Of a stretch of DNA of 64,000 nt, positions 46,236-52,344 are shown one piece after another. The stretch is taken from positions 1 to 64,000 of the forward strand of contig JAHIVC010000052.1 of NCBI GenBank assembly GCA_018816945.1, written 5' to 3'. Every line of letters begins with the position of its first letter. Within the stretch, counting starts at the first letter, position 1. The notes under the pieces are model-generated. The model saw nothing but the letters and a program-made list of their open reading frames with translations. It did no database searches and was not told the DNA's origin. The stretch comes from Bacteroidota bacterium (GTDB lineage: Bacteria > Bacteroidota > Bacteroidia > Bacteroidales > GCA-2711565). Position numbers and translations under genes: made by a program.

Positions 46236-47534
46236 TTGTTTCAAAAAATCATCAATACCTTAGGCACCCGAGTTTTTTCAGCAGTTTTAAATTTGCTGAT
46301 TGCAATTTTTATTTCCCAGCATCTTGGAGCCATTGGCAAAGGTCAGCAGGGACTGATCATTGCAACCATCACCTACATTCTTATCTTTTCGAATTTAGTT
46401 GGAGGAAGCACTTTGGTTTACTTATTGCCGCGATATGGGTATGCGCGTTTGCTTTTGCCTTCGTATATATGGTCAATATTAATGAGCCTGGCTTTTTATT
46501 TTATCCTGACCACAACCAGGATTATTGAAAACACATTGATTTTAAATATCTGCATCTTATCAATATTTATTTCATTTATCTCCATCCATTCGAACCTGCT
46601 CATTGGGCTCGAAAAAGTAAAAACTGCCAATCTCATCTGGTTTCTGCAACCGCTCATGATTATCGGATTCCTCCTTGCCTTCTTTCTGTTCGGGAATCAA
46701 GTTGGTATCGACACCTATTTTAATGCACTCTATTTCTCGCTTAGCATCTTGGTAATTCTAAGTTTTATACTATTACTTAAAGCAAAAAAAACACCTGTAA
46801 TATTTAAACTGCAATCTAATTTTAATATACTCTCAGAGATGTTCCGTTTGGGATTTCTTAATCAATTGGCACATATTTTTCAGATGTTAAGCTTTCGGAT
46901 GAGTTATTATTGGTTAGGTCAAGTCTATTCCGAAGCTGAAGTCGGGATCTATTCAAATGGAACTTCTCTTATCGAATCGGTTTGGCTATTGAGCAGAAGT
47001 ATCAGCATGGTTCAATATTCCAGAATAGTGAATATGAGCAACAAAAAAGAAGCTCAAAAACTCACCCTAAACTTAAGTAAATTGAGTTTTGTGATCAGTT
47101 TTGTCATATTACTGCCTATGATTTTTCTTCCCTCCTCTTTTTATGAATTTATATTTGGAGAAGGCTTCGGAGATGTACGATTGGTTATTCAATCACTGGC
47201 TCCGGGTGTTTTATTTCTCAATTTGAATATTATTATCAGTCACTATTTTTCGGGAACTGGCAAGTACCATTTTAATTCCATTGCATCTTTTGCAGGACTT
47301 TGTATTGCAATACCCTTATTTAGTTGGATGATTCCGGCATTTGGGATATTAGGAGCAGGATTTGCAAGTAGTATTTCCTACCTTGTTACAACCATGGTTA
47401 TTCTTTACTTCTATAAAAAAGAAGCAGAAATAAATATAAGCGATTTACGTTTAACACTTAATGACCTCTTGCAAGTGAAGAAGTTATACGAAAACACCTT
47501 TTTAACAAAAAAACTAAAAGATGATCAACATTAA
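46236..47534 (+). CDS. Polysaccharide flippase (Wzx/MOP superfamily)
   Basis: 432 residues with about 12 membrane helices. The start is TTG 46236, 2 bp after the GT4 stop; no ATG occurs in frame for a long distance, so coupling to the GT4 gene is likely. FISQHLGAIGKGQQGL near 29 fits the MATE/Wzx opening. It would flip lipid-linked oligosaccharide across the inner membrane. The end overlaps the GNAT gene by 14 bp. Confidence 0.85.
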   Translation: MFQKIINTLGTRVFSAVLNLLIAIFISQHLGAIGKGQQGLIIATITYILIFSNLVGGSTLVYLLPRYGYARLLLPSYIWSILMSLAFYFILTTTRIIENTLILNICILSIFISFISIHSNLLIGLEKVKTANLIWFLQPLMIIGFLLAFFLFGNQVGIDTYFNALYFSLSILVILSFILLLKAKKTPVIFKLQSNFNILSEMFRLGFLNQLAHIFQMLSFRMSYYWLGQVYSEAEVGIYSNGTSLIESVWLLSRSISMVQYSRIVNMSNKKEAQKLTLNLSKLSFVISFVILLPMIFLPSSFYEFIFGEGFGDVRLVIQSLAPGVLFLNLNIIISHYFSGTGKYHFNSIASFAGLCIAIPLFSWMIPAFGILGAGFASSISYLVTTMVILYFYKKEAEINISDLRLTLNDLLQVKKLYENTFLTKKLKDDQH

Positions 47535-48381
47535 ATCATTAAGTGCCACTTCTATTGAAAGCATACATCAGGCATTTGTTATAGCTTTTGCTGATTATGA
47601 AGAACCATTTGACATGACCGTCAAACAACTTCAGTACATGATTGAACGAAGAGGCTTTGTGCCTGAATTATCGTTTGGTGCTTTTGATGATGAAGAACTG
47701 ATTGGTTTTATCTTAAACGGCATTGGTTTATGGAACAATATACTTACCGCTTACGATACAGGTACCGGTATAGTTAAAGCATATCGAAAACAAGGAATTG
47801 CCACCCGCATTTTTAATGAATCGCTTCCGGTATTGAAGCAGCATGGGGTAAATCAATATTTACTAGAAGTGATCAAGACAAATACCAAGGCCTACGAATT
47901 ATACAAAAAGGCCGGGTTTGAGGTGCTCAGGGAATTTGATTATTTCGTATCCCCAATTGAATCGATTAATACTACCACTGAAGAGTTAATAACCGGATTC
48001 AGCATTAATGAGATTGATGAACCTCAATGGGATTTATTCAGTACTTTCCGTGATTTTACACCTTCATGGCAAAACTCATCTGATTCAATTCAACGCAAGC
48101 GATCGTTCTTTAAAATCCTGGGCATTTTCAATGAAAAAACCTTAGTTGGCTATGGAATCATCGAAACACACACTGGAGATATCCCACAATTTGCCATTGC
48201 CAAAAATTTCAGAAGAAAGGGATTGGGGACAGCACTTTTTAAAACATTTTGTAATACCACCGAGAGTGGCATTATAAAAATTATCAATACCGATTTCAAA
48301 GATAAAGGCACTAAAATTTTTATTGAAAGCCTTGGTTTTAAAGCCGGGTTTGGGCAGTATGAGATGTTGCATAAGTTTTAA
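47521..48381 (+). CDS. Tandem GNAT acetyltransferase
   Basis: 286 residues with two GNAT-like halves. The first (about 1-140) has YRKQGIATRIF, an acetyl-CoA-binding V-x-x-x-R/Q-x-x-G-x-G/A motif. The second (about 155-286) has IAKNFRRKGLGTALF. Acceptor is unknown. It overlaps the flippase gene and could modify a sugar precursor or a small molecule; this link is only positional. Confidence 0.85.
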   Translation: MINIKSLSATSIESIHQAFVIAFADYEEPFDMTVKQLQYMIERRGFVPELSFGAFDDEELIGFILNGIGLWNNILTAYDTGTGIVKAYRKQGIATRIFNESLPVLKQHGVNQYLLEVIKTNTKAYELYKKAGFEVLREFDYFVSPIESINTTTEELITGFSINEIDEPQWDLFSTFRDFTPSWQNSSDSIQRKRSFFKILGIFNEKTLVGYGIIETHTGDIPQFAIAKNFRRKGLGTALFKTFCNTTESGIIKIINTDFKDKGTKIFIESLGFKAGFGQYEMLHKF

Positions 48382-48414: not shown

Positions 48415-48954
48415 ATGATTGATAATGCTAATACAGAAACATTGAATTTTGATGATGGTGAAAGGTTTTTACTTCGTCATATGGCACATGGCGATGCAAC
48501 CAAGGAACAAAAATTCGTACGTAAACTTTCAAATGAGTCTCGCTACCTGCGCTTTCATGGATCAATCAAAGAACTAAATAAGGAGGATCTGGAGAGGTTT
48601 ACAAATCCCAACCCGCTGAGCGAAGAAGCCCTGATTATGCTGTATAAAGGAGCATCATTGGAAGAAGAAATCGGCGTTGCACGATTCATCATTGATCCGG
48701 ATGACGAGGGCTGCGAATTTGCAATTGTAGTTGCTGATGAATGGCAAAATCTTGGCCTTGGGGCAAAACTGATGAATGCATTGATAAATCATGCTCAAGC
48801 TCGCGGGTTAAAACGAATTTATGGTTCTGTACTCAAAGATAACGCTGGTATGCTCCAGTTTATCAAAGGATTGGGATTTGAAGAAACCATCGACCCTGAT
48901 GATTCTTCGCTTATACTTGTTACAAAATATCTGAGGGATTCATCAGGATCGTAA
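48415..48954 (+). CDS. GNAT family acetyltransferase
   Basis: 179 residues, a single GNAT domain. The acetyl-CoA-binding motif VADEWQNLGLGAKLM is near 108-122. The opening region FLLRHMAHGDATKEQKFVRKLSNES resembles the GNAT domains linked to protein lysine acetyltransferases of the Pat type. A purine-rich TGGAGGA precedes ATG 48415 by about 9 bp. Substrate unknown. Confidence 0.88.
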   Translation: MIDNANTETLNFDDGERFLLRHMAHGDATKEQKFVRKLSNESRYLRFHGSIKELNKEDLERFTNPNPLSEEALIMLYKGASLEEEIGVARFIIDPDDEGCEFAIVVADEWQNLGLGAKLMNALINHAQARGLKRIYGSVLKDNAGMLQFIKGLGFEETIDPDDSSLILVTKYLRDSSGS

Positions 48955-49029
48955 TATTTTGTAAATGATCCGTAGGTTAGGTAAATTGACCTCCCCACAA
49001 TTGGAGAATATAACCATTTTATTAGTAGT

Positions 49030-49119
49030 GAAAAACTTTAAATTTAACTGCCTGGAGCATGGCTTCACACAACAAGTATTGCTTAAGTTTTGGATTTTGA
49101 AAAAGAAAGCGGTGCGAAG
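49030..49119. repeat. Direct repeat A, flanking the DUF5694 gene
   Basis: This 90-bp stretch aligns without gaps to 50221-50310 with about 74 identical bases by hand count. It contains CTTCACAC near its middle and GGTGCGAAG at its end, an imperfect inverted pair. The remaining gap 48955-49223 shows no gene. Confidence 0.65.
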
Positions 49120-49223
49120 TTTTAAAAAGTAAGGAAATAAAATTGTTAAAAGTATAGAAATATAACTGCGTGCTATTTAATACAAATCCCTAAATGCATA
49201 TACAAATACGAATAGATAATAAC

Positions 49224-50075
49224 TTACAAGTCAATTTTTATTTTCGCATTTTCTAAATAAGGTAAAGGTGTGACTAAATCAAATTCCTTTGAAACATCGA
49301 AGAGATAGTTTAACAAATTGATGTGCTCAGCTCCGATTATTAATAAAATTCTATCATCAGGATTAGAAGTTATTCTTTGAAGGTTCCTAAAAATTCTCAG
49401 GTTCCGGTTAAACCACCTGCCTGTTTCAAAATCAACTCCAATAAAATCACCGTTTTGTTCTTCATATTTAAAAGGAGTCAATAAATATACTGACAACCTG
49501 TCTTTAATATGCTGGGGATCATTTAATTCGATCAATTCATTAACAATGCTGTTCACTATTCCGGATGGTTTAGGCAGCTTATATACAGAATCGGGAGAAT
49601 TGAGATAATAATCCTCAAAATTAGCAGATCGGATACTATCGTCAAATAATGCTTCAAGGGTAGCATAATGTTTGCCCCAATCATTAACACAATAAATTTG
49701 AGGCAGGTTCAAATTTTTCCCAATCCGAAAAGCAAGTTGATAAATTTCATCTTTATCCAATGTAAGTCTATCCGACTTATACAATGAATATAATGAATCT
49801 ATTTGGTATTGTTTAGCTGGTAATGCTTCTATCGCAATCTTATTCGGTTTAAATTCCTCAATGGCTTTGCATATTTCAATTATTTCTGATTGATAAGGTT
49901 CATCAAGCACCGAGATTTGATCTTTTTTTTCTGTTTTTACAACATCCAAATTATGATAGGCAAAATGAAAAACGCCAAGTGTCATTATTTGTGCTTGCTT
50001 TGGAACATCATTCGATTGTCCGAATGAAGTAGGGATAATAAGCATACCGAAGAATAGGATAAACAATTTTTTCAT
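49224..50075 (-). CDS. DUF5694 secreted protein (TraB/PrgY-like fold suspected)
   Basis: 283 residues with a signal peptide ending near TSFGQ. The opening IMTLGVFHFAYHNLDV, the middle KPNKIAIEALPAKQ and the end LLIIGAEHINLLNYLF fit DUF5694, which resembles TraB-like proteins with conserved His and Glu residues. A metal-dependent hydrolase has been proposed for related folds, but function is unknown. It is flanked on both sides by the same ~90-bp repeat, which suggests gain or loss as a unit. Confidence 0.8.
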   Translation of the reverse strand: MKKLFILFFGMLIIPTSFGQSNDVPKQAQIMTLGVFHFAYHNLDVVKTEKKDQISVLDEPYQSEIIEICKAIEEFKPNKIAIEALPAKQYQIDSLYSLYKSDRLTLDKDEIYQLAFRIGKNLNLPQIYCVNDWGKHYATLEALFDDSIRSANFEDYYLNSPDSVYKLPKPSGIVNSIVNELIELNDPQHIKDRLSVYLLTPFKYEEQNGDFIGVDFETGRWFNRNLRIFRNLQRITSNPDDRILLIIGAEHINLLNYLFDVSKEFDLVTPLPYLENAKIKIDL

Positions 50076-50220
50076 GTTTTTAATATTAACTTAATTCACG
50101 GAGAAGACGAATCCCTTTTCAAAATATTACAACATAAATGGTTTCATGATGACTTTTGCAATAGAATAGAGCTAAAGCTACCAAGAGGATGATTTCATTT
50201 GATTAGAGCAGTGGAGCATT

Positions 50221-50350
50221 GAAAAGCTTTAAGTTTAATTGCCAAAAATATGGCTTCGTTCAACAGATGTTGCTTAAATTTTGGATTTTGAAAAACAAAG
50301 CGGTGCGAAGTTTAAAATTTATCTGCCAAAGACATGACTTCGCACAACAG
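50221..50350. repeat. Direct repeat B and a partial third unit
   Basis: 50221-50310 is the partner of repeat A. A partial third copy of the start of the unit follows at about 50312-50350. GTGCGAAGT (50303-50311) and ACTTCGCAC (50337-50345) form a perfect 9-bp stem. The rest of the 373-bp gap (50076-50448) has no gene that I can see. Confidence 0.65.
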
Positions 50351-50448
50351 TGGGTTTCGACAAATGCTAAACGGGAGTCTCGATTTGACAAGTTTTAGAT
50401 AATGTCGGCGTTATAGATAGCCCTTTTTATTCCAAGTCGATTTACAAC

Positions 50449-52344
50449 TTAAGCTTTTTCAGAAGCAAAGTTCGGTTCAACAGGTTTACGGAAATCATTT
50501 ACCCTGCCAGTAATTCTTCTCTCTGCAGGAAATGTGATATCGTGATAAATATTTACATAATAAGCCAGGCTTTCTTTTAAGCCTTTACGATGGACCAGAT
50601 GTTGAATTTTTCCCGTTTTATATAAACTATTCGTACATACTATTTCTGGATCTACCTCAAAACCGGCCCCAATAACTACCCTTGGGCCGGCAAATTCAAC
50701 CAGCGAACCTATTTCTCCGAACATCACATCACCTTGGGTAGCATAACTTGCGTAAGCACCACCTGTGGTCGGTCCGGTAATAACCGATAAAAATAAAACA
50801 CCGGCTTTTTTCAGATCCAAAATGGCCATGTTCATTTTTGCCATTTGAGCTAAGGACATGGGGCCCTCATTCATCCTTGCCCCACCCGATGCGCAAATTG
50901 AAACCATTGGATATTTATGTTTTACGGCAAAATCAACTGCACGCTTGAACTTTTCGCCAAAGGCCGCTCCGAAAGAACCACCAAAAAAAGTCAAATCAGA
51001 TATGATCAACACGATGGGTTTCCCATTGATCCTGGCAGTACCAGCCACAAGACCTTCTTTCGAAAATGTTTTGCCAATAGTTTTATCCAGTGAATTTTGA
51101 TAACTTCCAAAATAATAGCGCTCTTTCCCAATTAATTTATGAATGGTTAGATCACTTTCAATCTCCTCGAAAGTATCCTGATCACATATTTTATCTATCT
51201 GGTCCTCAACACTTAGATATTCTCCTTTTCCACATTTTGGACAGGCATAATAATTATCTACATATTGTTGATAGGGTACAAAACCGCATCCACCCTTAAC
51301 TTTAAAAAGATTTTTCTCTATATCCCATTCTTTGGTGCATTCAAAGAGTTCTGTTTCTTCGATCCCCTTTTTTTCCATGTGGGCCTTCATGAGCAATTGG
51401 GTGTAAAATTCTTCGCGCTCAATATCAATGGTATTTATTTTTTCATGAATACTTTTCAAGATTTTACGTTTGGTAAGCTTATCAATCGTATCTTCAAACA
51501 TTCCATAATTCAGCACCCGCTGTCGTCGTTCAATAAGCAATTTATCAACCAATTTGGGTTTAAGGACCTTCTCCCCCGTTTTTAATTCTACAACCCAGTC
51601 TTTTAGTGTTAAGGTAAGCGATTCTGTTATGGTGTCGATGGTAAATTCATAATTTTCGTGAGCACCATTTATGGGCTCAGGCAAAATACCATCTATCATT
51701 CCAATTTCCTTGATATGCTCAGCACCCGGCCTTAACATTTCAAGTGCATCAGGAACCGTGTCTTCAATATTTTCACCCGAGGTCAATCTACGATGAAAGA
51801 TAATACGACAGCAGCTCTCGGGTGCAATCACCGAGTACAAAGAATTCTCAAGCATATAACTCCGATCGGCTACTTGCAAAGCCAAAGCACCACCACTCCC
51901 ACCTTCACCTATCACATACGAAACAGTTGCTGTTTTCACACCGCAATAACGGCTGATGCAGTCGGAAATCAAAAAAGATTGTCCCCCTATTTCAGATTCC
52001 ATGGAAGTATCACCGCCAAAAGTATCAATAAAAGAAACGACCGGAATTTGATTTTTTTCAGCTAGGTCAAGCACATCCAATACATAGGCAAATCCCTTCG
52101 AAGTTATCATTCCTGTGGCTAAACTATCTTTACCTTGCCTTCTTTTTTCCTGACCAAGGATATAACATACAACTCCATCAACAGAACCTTTAGCAGCAAC
52201 TAAAGAAGGATCGGGCGAGTTAAAGTATTCTATATTGTCAAATACCCCTGCAATGACATCTGAACTTCTTATCCTGGAGGGATTTCGAGTAATATCATAT
52301 CGTTCTTTATAGTTACGCTTTAGTGGAAAACCGTCTTTTTTCAT
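50449..52344 (-). CDS. accA/accD: Fused acetyl-CoA carboxylase carboxyltransferase (AccA-AccD order)
   Basis: 631 residues. Residues ~30-230 match AccA (IGEGGSGGALALQVADRS near 145-162, SVIAPESC). A linker (about 235-345) leads to an AccD part: zinc-ribbon remnant with Cys353, Cys368 and Cys371, then FGGSFGAAFGEKF and CASGGARMNEGPMS near 484-497. The enzyme moves CO2 from carboxybiotin to acetyl-CoA to make malonyl-CoA. The first zinc cysteine seems missing (Lys350 region). Fusions known to me are mostly beta-alpha; alpha-beta order is less usual. No accB/accC nearby. Confidence 0.88.
   Translation of the reverse strand: MKKDGFPLKRNYKERYDITRNPSRIRSSDVIAGVFDNIEYFNSPDPSLVAAKGSVDGVVCYILGQEKRRQGKDSLATGMITSKGFAYVLDVLDLAEKNQIPVVSFIDTFGGDTSMESEIGGQSFLISDCISRYCGVKTATVSYVIGEGGSGGALALQVADRSYMLENSLYSVIAPESCCRIIFHRRLTSGENIEDTVPDALEMLRPGAEHIKEIGMIDGILPEPINGAHENYEFTIDTITESLTLTLKDWVVELKTGEKVLKPKLVDKLLIERRQRVLNYGMFEDTIDKLTKRKILKSIHEKINTIDIEREEFYTQLLMKAHMEKKGIEETELFECTKEWDIEKNLFKVKGGCGFVPYQQYVDNYYACPKCGKGEYLSVEDQIDKICDQDTFEEIESDLTIHKLIGKERYYFGSYQNSLDKTIGKTFSKEGLVAGTARINGKPIVLIISDLTFFGGSFGAAFGEKFKRAVDFAVKHKYPMVSICASGGARMNEGPMSLAQMAKMNMAILDLKKAGVLFLSVITGPTTGGAYASYATQGDVMFGEIGSLVEFAGPRVVIGAGFEVDPEIVCTNSLYKTGKIQHLVHRKGLKESLAYYVNIYHDITFPAERRITGRVNDFRKPVEPNFASEKA

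Follow-up and report, generated by a model that had tools for sequence, protein, structure and literature searches.

REP sequences are usually described as present in more than 100 copies (PMC2817692), and definitions of REP families also allow for 20-100 copies or fewer (PMC3733652). For TnpA-REP of E. coli, recognition, cleavage and recombination of single-stranded REP are described in vitro (PMC8266576). Two subclasses of the rayt genes (REP-associated tyrosine transposases) described in PMC6006769 come closest to the case presented here. Subclass 2.6 belongs mostly to Bacteroidetes. Its genes are characterized by the motifs NH[LIV]H, YIH[QN]NP and WQ. The structures on their flanks are atypical: they lack GT[AG]G, fold weakly, occur as further copies at other places of the genome and required manual inspection (PMC6006769). 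The REPs of subclass 2.4, also found in Bacteroidetes, have a 'double foot', GT[AG]G...C[TC]AC (PMC6006769).

Here, we analysed a 64-kb stretch of DNA from a Bacteroidota bacterium (hereafter the window, whose own numbering gives all window positions), in which two direct repeats flank a gene encoding a DUF5694 protein. These repeats are probably two worn, BIME-like clusters of a lineage-specific, REP-like palindrome, named P below, that would have been mobilized by a RAYT (HUH/Y1 transposase) of a Bacteroidota type, DUF5694 being a bystander. REP-like palindromes associated with RAYTs are a known kind of element; P itself was previously unrecognised. The comparison within the genus involves six genomes: the genome from which the window comes (G000), its nearest relative and the only close one among them (G001, 87% complete) and four other congeners (G002 to G005, 68-100% complete). 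Loci extracted from genomes are numbered with an L, and contigs are given as genome:contig.

Two 103-bp repeats made of palindromes flank a DUF5694 gene

The features of the locus are the following:

48415-48954, forward strand: GNAT acetyltransferase, left neighbour (Pfam); same neighbour in G001
49024-49126, forward strand: repeat copy 1, 103 bp, consisting of a worn P (P1), a spacer and the left half of a second P (P2); 82% identical to copy 2
49025-49074, forward strand: P1, the worn P of copy 1; match to sequence model R1 with E 2.7e-12, which is a match to a training sequence as P1 belongs to the model's own alignment
49105-49126, forward strand: P2, left half of a palindrome, GCGGTGCGAAGTTTT, without its right counterpart; not present at the same place in G001 (alignment)
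49224-50075, reverse strand: DUF5694 gene, 283 aa (ORF; PF18950, E 2.1e-48); orthologue 90% identical at the same locus in G001
50215-50317, forward strand: repeat copy 2, 103 bp, consisting of a worn P (P3, 50216-50265), a spacer and the start of P4 (repeat finding, model R1)
50300-50349, forward strand: P4, complete long palindrome with a perfect 9-bp stem
50449-52344, reverse strand: acetyl-CoA carboxylase carboxyltransferase (acc), right neighbour; ACCA and Carboxyl_trans matches in one protein

The initial annotation had reported direct repeats of 90 bp (49030-49119 and 50221-50310) that agree at 74 of 90 positions, and we obtained the same count (82%). Repeat finding indicates that they are longer than claimed, i.e. 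103 bp each, with 82% identity. The second copy, searched against its own genome, gave an E-value of 1.7e-22 and the repeat is therefore not due to chance. The 'partial third unit' that had been noticed directly after copy 2 exists and makes the perfect 9-bp stem that had been announced, GTGCGAAGT (50303-50311) facing ACTTCGCAC (50337-50345); however, it is not partial but a complete P, namely P4. When the window was shuffled 100 times with its dinucleotides preserved, no shuffle matched the stem pattern. The nested inverted repeats are also real and can be described more precisely as halves of one dispersed palindrome, copy 1 holding a worn P and half of another. As single-stranded DNA, the copies in the window fold unremarkably when compared with shuffles (z = -1.6 for P4 alone and -0.05 for copy 2 with P4), copy 1 being even worse than shuffles (z = +1.4).

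A single gene, on the reverse strand, lies between the copies, as had been stated. A Pfam scan of six ORFs, DUF5694 and the five neighbouring ones, detected no recombinase; one of these ORFs (46236-47534) matched nothing. An Rfam search of 48900-50600 gave no match either. The spacer of the 103-bp unit was found only at the DUF5694 locus. Both a local duplication and two insertions of one P-spacer-P unit fit with the doubling of the 103-bp unit. Four other genomes of the order contain short matches to copy 1 (19-25 nt, E 1e-4 to 0.008), which were set aside by eye since they hold no palindrome.

P is a dispersed palindrome located between genes

The stem of P is GTGCGAAGT...ACTTCGCAC, and P occurs in a long form, GTTGTGCGAAGTTTC.GAATTTATCTGCCATAGGCATGACTTCGCACAAC, and also in a short form, GTGCGAAGTTT..AAACTTCGCAC. 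A search of the genus with copy 2 and the third unit recovered both copies and the additional piece at the same locus in G001. Among the matches examined (the stronger ones and, of the weaker ones, L042 and L057), it also gave three strong matches at other places (G000:C99:235334, G001:C68:11759 and G001:C68:16275). All three correspond to the stretch in which copy 2 passes into the third unit, and their sequences reveal P as a free-standing palindrome.

P is a lineage-specific, dispersed and intergenic palindrome. The strict pattern GTGCRAAGTN{0,30}ACTTYGCAC identified six palindromes in G000, four in G001 and none in each of the other four congeners, and the reversed pattern, used as a control, gave no match. 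With a slightly stricter pattern, a single genome matched in a sample of 395 genomes of the class that leaves G001 aside: it is the genome studied here, the 394 others having no match. Four worn copies were seen in G000 besides the six strict ones, i.e. about ten copies in total. The sequence model of long P (R1), for which 150 of roughly 800-2300 candidates per genome were scored, recovered its nine source copies and only one further match below E 0.01; this match, at G004:C241 (E 9.6e-5), lies inside a 334-aa ORF and was set aside. None of the 15 sites tested overlaps an ATG-start ORF of at least 100 aa, and for one gene neighbouring P, a GTG-start reading begins inside the palindrome. Among the matches listed in our searches of the open literature, no title or beginning of an abstract deals with P or with the module exchange described below.

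P borders rayt genes

On contig C73 of G000 (144973-145674), two short strict P bracket a broken rayt gene. Both readable pieces of this gene match NF047646 (REP_Tyr_transpos) with E-values of 1.4e-11 and 2e-11, each piece being below the cut-off, as fragments; PF01797, a weak detector of rayt genes of this sort, detects it as well. For the two flanking P, folding is much stronger than in shuffles (z = -4.6 each). The order at this locus is P, GTAG...CTAC palindrome, rayt, GTAG...CTAC palindrome, P. Two further features of this genome are:

L071:4007-4021 and L071:4626-4640: inner GTAG...CTAC palindromes at the C73 rayt
L091:1459-2034 (G000:C6): intact second rayt-like gene, 191 aa (NF047646, 54.5 of 80 bits, below the cut-off)

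A scan of named genomes yielded ten loci with the strict palindrome, two of which (L114 and L117) are G001 itself (100% identical). The eight others were searched by tblastn with the two pieces of the C73 transposase, over 4-8 kb per locus, and two of them have a rayt. The rayt of Flavobacteriaceae SJ88 (L119) has a strict P at one flank; at the other flank is a two-copy 47-bp array of near-P, a variant of P rather than strict P. In Bacteroidales STD1_214 (L116), GTAGTTAAAAACTAC and a truncated P come after the 3' end of rayt; the same rayt 3'-end sequence occurs where the contig starts, with GTAGTTAAAAACTAC and then a full P after it. Since P brackets the C73 rayt and P or a close variant adjoins rayt in two other Bacteroidota MAGs, it is best read, from its sequence context, as a REP-like element of a Bacteroidota RAYT.

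Several observations weigh against this reading. The other six of the eight loci gave no rayt match within 4-8 kb, and two of the eight are from Omnitrophota. G002 and G003 have intact rayt genes yet no strict P. Furthermore, the intact C6 gene of G000 is not near P: no strict P was found on its contig. It differs from the C73 gene and was unmatched by the two C73 pieces. Besides C6, the remaining Y1 matches in G000 are two IS200-type transposases (NF033573), and both Y1 matches in G001 are also IS200-type. Neither G000 nor G001 (87% complete) yielded an intact rayt of the type that P brackets; therefore, the P family looks orphaned.

The array in SJ88 (L119:5179-5272), a tandem of two 47-bp copies of near-P and spacer at the 3' end of rayt, is BIME-like. 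The GTAG...CTAC palindrome adjoins P in separate genomes (L116:36-50 and L062:1552-1566, in addition to the two L071 sites listed above) and may represent a 'double foot' REP in its own right. On G003:C2 (L093, near 1100 and 1900), the intact rayt of a congener is flanked by a different, AAGGCAGAGCCTTAGCC-like palindromic sequence (by eye), which suggests that each rayt has its own repeat.

Comparison with known REP families

Judging from the agreement of motifs and the match to NF047646, the C73 rayt may belong to subclass 2.6 (Bertels group 5): its NHLH and YIHNNP fit NH[LIV]H and YIH[QN]NP, and P, which has no GT[AG]G foot, flanks rayt and has copies elsewhere in the genome (PMC6006769). 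There are also differences, namely a WKQ motif instead of WQ (PMC6006769) and a broken gene. Moreover, P folds strongly beside rayt, whereas the structures described for subclass 2.6 are weak (PMC6006769), a point against the involvement of a RAYT. Only about ten copies are present, and those next to DUF5694 belong to a compound 103-bp unit with a private spacer that ordinary REP spread leaves unaccounted for.

As judged from sequence, the C73 rayt may belong to subclass 2.4 instead. The GTAG...CTAC palindrome found on both sides of the broken rayt, between the gene and P, recalls the REPs of this subclass; however, the motif of the subclass is NH[IFV]H and not NHLH, and P is here a second, longer palindrome located outside (PMC6006769).

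As with proteobacterial GTAG REPs and REPINs, we observed intergenic hairpins, doublets, small clusters and a bracketed rayt (PMC3733652, PMC2817692). P differs from canonical GTAG REPs by its foot, which is GTT/AAC or variants with no GT[AG]G, the GTAG...CTAC palindrome being separate, and by its low copy number (six strict and four worn copies in G000). Both differences count against the RAYT explanation. A repeat that had been unrecognised is now tied to a named transposase class in Bacteroidota, where the flanks of subclass 2.6 needed to be found manually (PMC6006769).

DUF5694, a probable bystander between two P clusters

The initial annotation had seen in this locus the layout of a cassette. 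DUF5694 and its repeats could indeed form a cassette that is moved or lost by recombination between the 103-bp copies: the arrangement repeat-gene-repeat fits, the repeats do consist of sequences of the mobile-element type (RAYT-associated palindromes) and four of the six genomes of the genus lack a close DUF5694 orthologue, two of those being only 68-71% complete. Furthermore, as detailed below, a P-bounded module located between A and C in one genome is gone from there in the other, with one palindrome left. We nevertheless consider such a cassette unlikely. The 103-bp unit has no other place in its own genome at E <= 0.01. In G001, the gene, its orientation and its neighbours are the same (protein identity of 88% for GNAT, 90% for DUF5694 and 92% for acc), and worn copies of both repeats are kept, half P2 being missing from copy 1. 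Copy 2 of G001 ends after ...CGCACAATAGG and is followed by a CNNM/CBS gene, beyond which acc is the right neighbour as well.

Over a stretch of 51 nt, which is too short for close dating of the duplication, the two copies of the window agree at 38 positions and thus differ as much as orthologous copies do (39/51 and 40/51), which argues against a recent duplication; the other pairs agree at 42, 32 and 33 of 51. The simplest reading is that DUF5694 sat between P clusters before the species of G000 and G001 parted. In the more distant congeners, acc has other downstream neighbours (G002 and G005) or gives only partial matches, with at most 39% identity (G003 and G004). The initial annotation had suggested looking for strains in which the gene is absent and one repeat is left. 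This state was seen elsewhere (A-P-B-P-C versus A-P-C); at DUF5694, the genomes compared showed no informative empty site. It had also held that a repeat found only here, with the gene at the same locus in all relatives, would contradict the cassette. This is largely what we observed, the unit existing only here and the gene being in place in G001, the sole close relative. DUF5694 is probably just a bystander enclosed by P clusters, and the data do not support its being a mobile cassette.

P sites coincide with differences between the two closest genomes

Besides the end of copy 2, two regions that carry P differ between G000 and G001. The first is the clearest case. On G000:C9, the order of modules is A-P-B-P-C, and on G001:C170 it is X-P-B-P-A-P-C. 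Hence, the A-C junction holds two P and B in G000 versus a single P in G001, where B lies on the other side of A. The four predicted pairs of flanks agree at 38, 37, 33 and 31 of 40 nt, and their opposite sides at 18-24 of 40. The 16 unpredicted comparisons (of 20) gave 18-28 of 40 for a random maximum of 27 in 500 draws, which is just exceeded by one pair (28 of 40, left flanks of P1 and P2 of G001). Of the five module ends that can be compared, four switch at a palindrome, namely the two of B, the right one of A and the left one of C. This provides one case of a gene module that changed place and has both ends exactly at P palindromes. The fifth end, the left one of A, is off any palindrome, and this weighs against the RAYT explanation; in G000, homology starts 137 nt inside A, a module whose length also differs internally by about 0.1 kb between the two genomes. 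A mis-join in the G001 assembly may be the source of the module difference.

The module that changed place between the two species (L073:3283-3748 and L072:3597-4061, i.e. 0.42 kb bounded by P) measures 420 nt in G000 and 419 nt in G001 between palindromes. It contains a hydrophobic ORF of 97 aa and 88 aa, respectively, which appears membrane-like by eye.

The second region corresponds to the long P at G001:C68:11759, which is missing at the matching site of G000: the interval is 36 nt in G000 versus 370 nt in G001, P included. The GTAG palindrome beside it is kept in G000 with one change.

The orthologue (91%) of the CNNM/CBS gene that follows copy 2 in G001 sits elsewhere in G000. The neighbourhoods of this gene in three congeners (L032:7916-8980 in G001:C60, L107:7186-8250 in G000:C27 and L108:4830-5894 in G003:C68) have no neighbour ORF of at least 90 aa in common in the 10-17 kb stretches compared. 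CNNM/CBS was rejected as a P-borne cassette, as no P half-site was found over some 0.5 kb on each side of its copies in G000 and G003; the gene touches P only at its G001 position. P palindromes resemble break sites of gene rearrangement more than the termini of a mobile gene.

A bolder proposal would make P palindromes sites of module exchange. Single genes located between two palindromes would be excised and reinserted by a RAYT, or by a host factor that acts on hairpins, and one palindrome would stay behind; this would be an integron-like shuffling without integrase, with DUF5694 as one module. We regard this as quite unlikely. If RAYTs do cause module exchange, this would bear on roles of REP palindromes beyond sitting between genes.

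Possible origin and other roles of P

According to the explanation that we favor, i.e. worn clusters of a RAYT-associated palindrome, the RAYT would have cut and joined P as single-stranded hairpins, a chemistry suggested by the bracketing of rayt by P. In this way, P and P-spacer-P units would have been placed next to genes, among them DUF5694 on its two sides. The exchanges between G000 and G001 would reflect earlier activity of the RAYT or else palindromes that recombined or caused slippage of replication between them; candidate routes for module exchange are RAYT chemistry, RecA recombination over 23-30 bp and replication slippage at hairpins.

Alternatively, P could be only a transcription terminator or a hairpin of mRNA ends that is common in this lineage and has no mobile origin. 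Both clusters are located 3' of a gene, and P is palindromic and intergenic. However, no terminator-like site was found in 48900-50500, by a scan whose loop range of 3-8 would miss long P, and the restriction to a lineage, the bracketing of rayt and the tandem array beside another rayt are unexpected for terminators. This explanation is very unlikely, and termination may be a secondary role of P.

Integron attC sites have RYYYAAC...GTTRRRY boxes. It is hardly credible that P corresponds to an attC-like site, with the genes in between as cassettes of a cluster without integrase (CALIN): palindromic sites do lie at the junctions of small gene modules whose order changes, but the box pair was found at none of 13 sites (P extended by about 12 nt in both directions), P has GTT...AAC at its ends, the reverse of the attC order, and the hairpin is shorter and symmetric.

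The DUF5694 gene and its neighbours

As it stands, the DUF5694 locus as such is ordinary. No paper on DUF5694 was found among the open-access papers searched. A sequence search of the PDB gave three weak matches (best E 0.0051) that were taken as chance, and the single-sequence AlphaFold2 model of the protein, with a mean pLDDT of 32.8, is unusable. On the left side of the locus, two GNAT acetyltransferase genes are adjacent (47521-48381 and 48415-48954), and the first of them has two GNAT stretches (Pfam).
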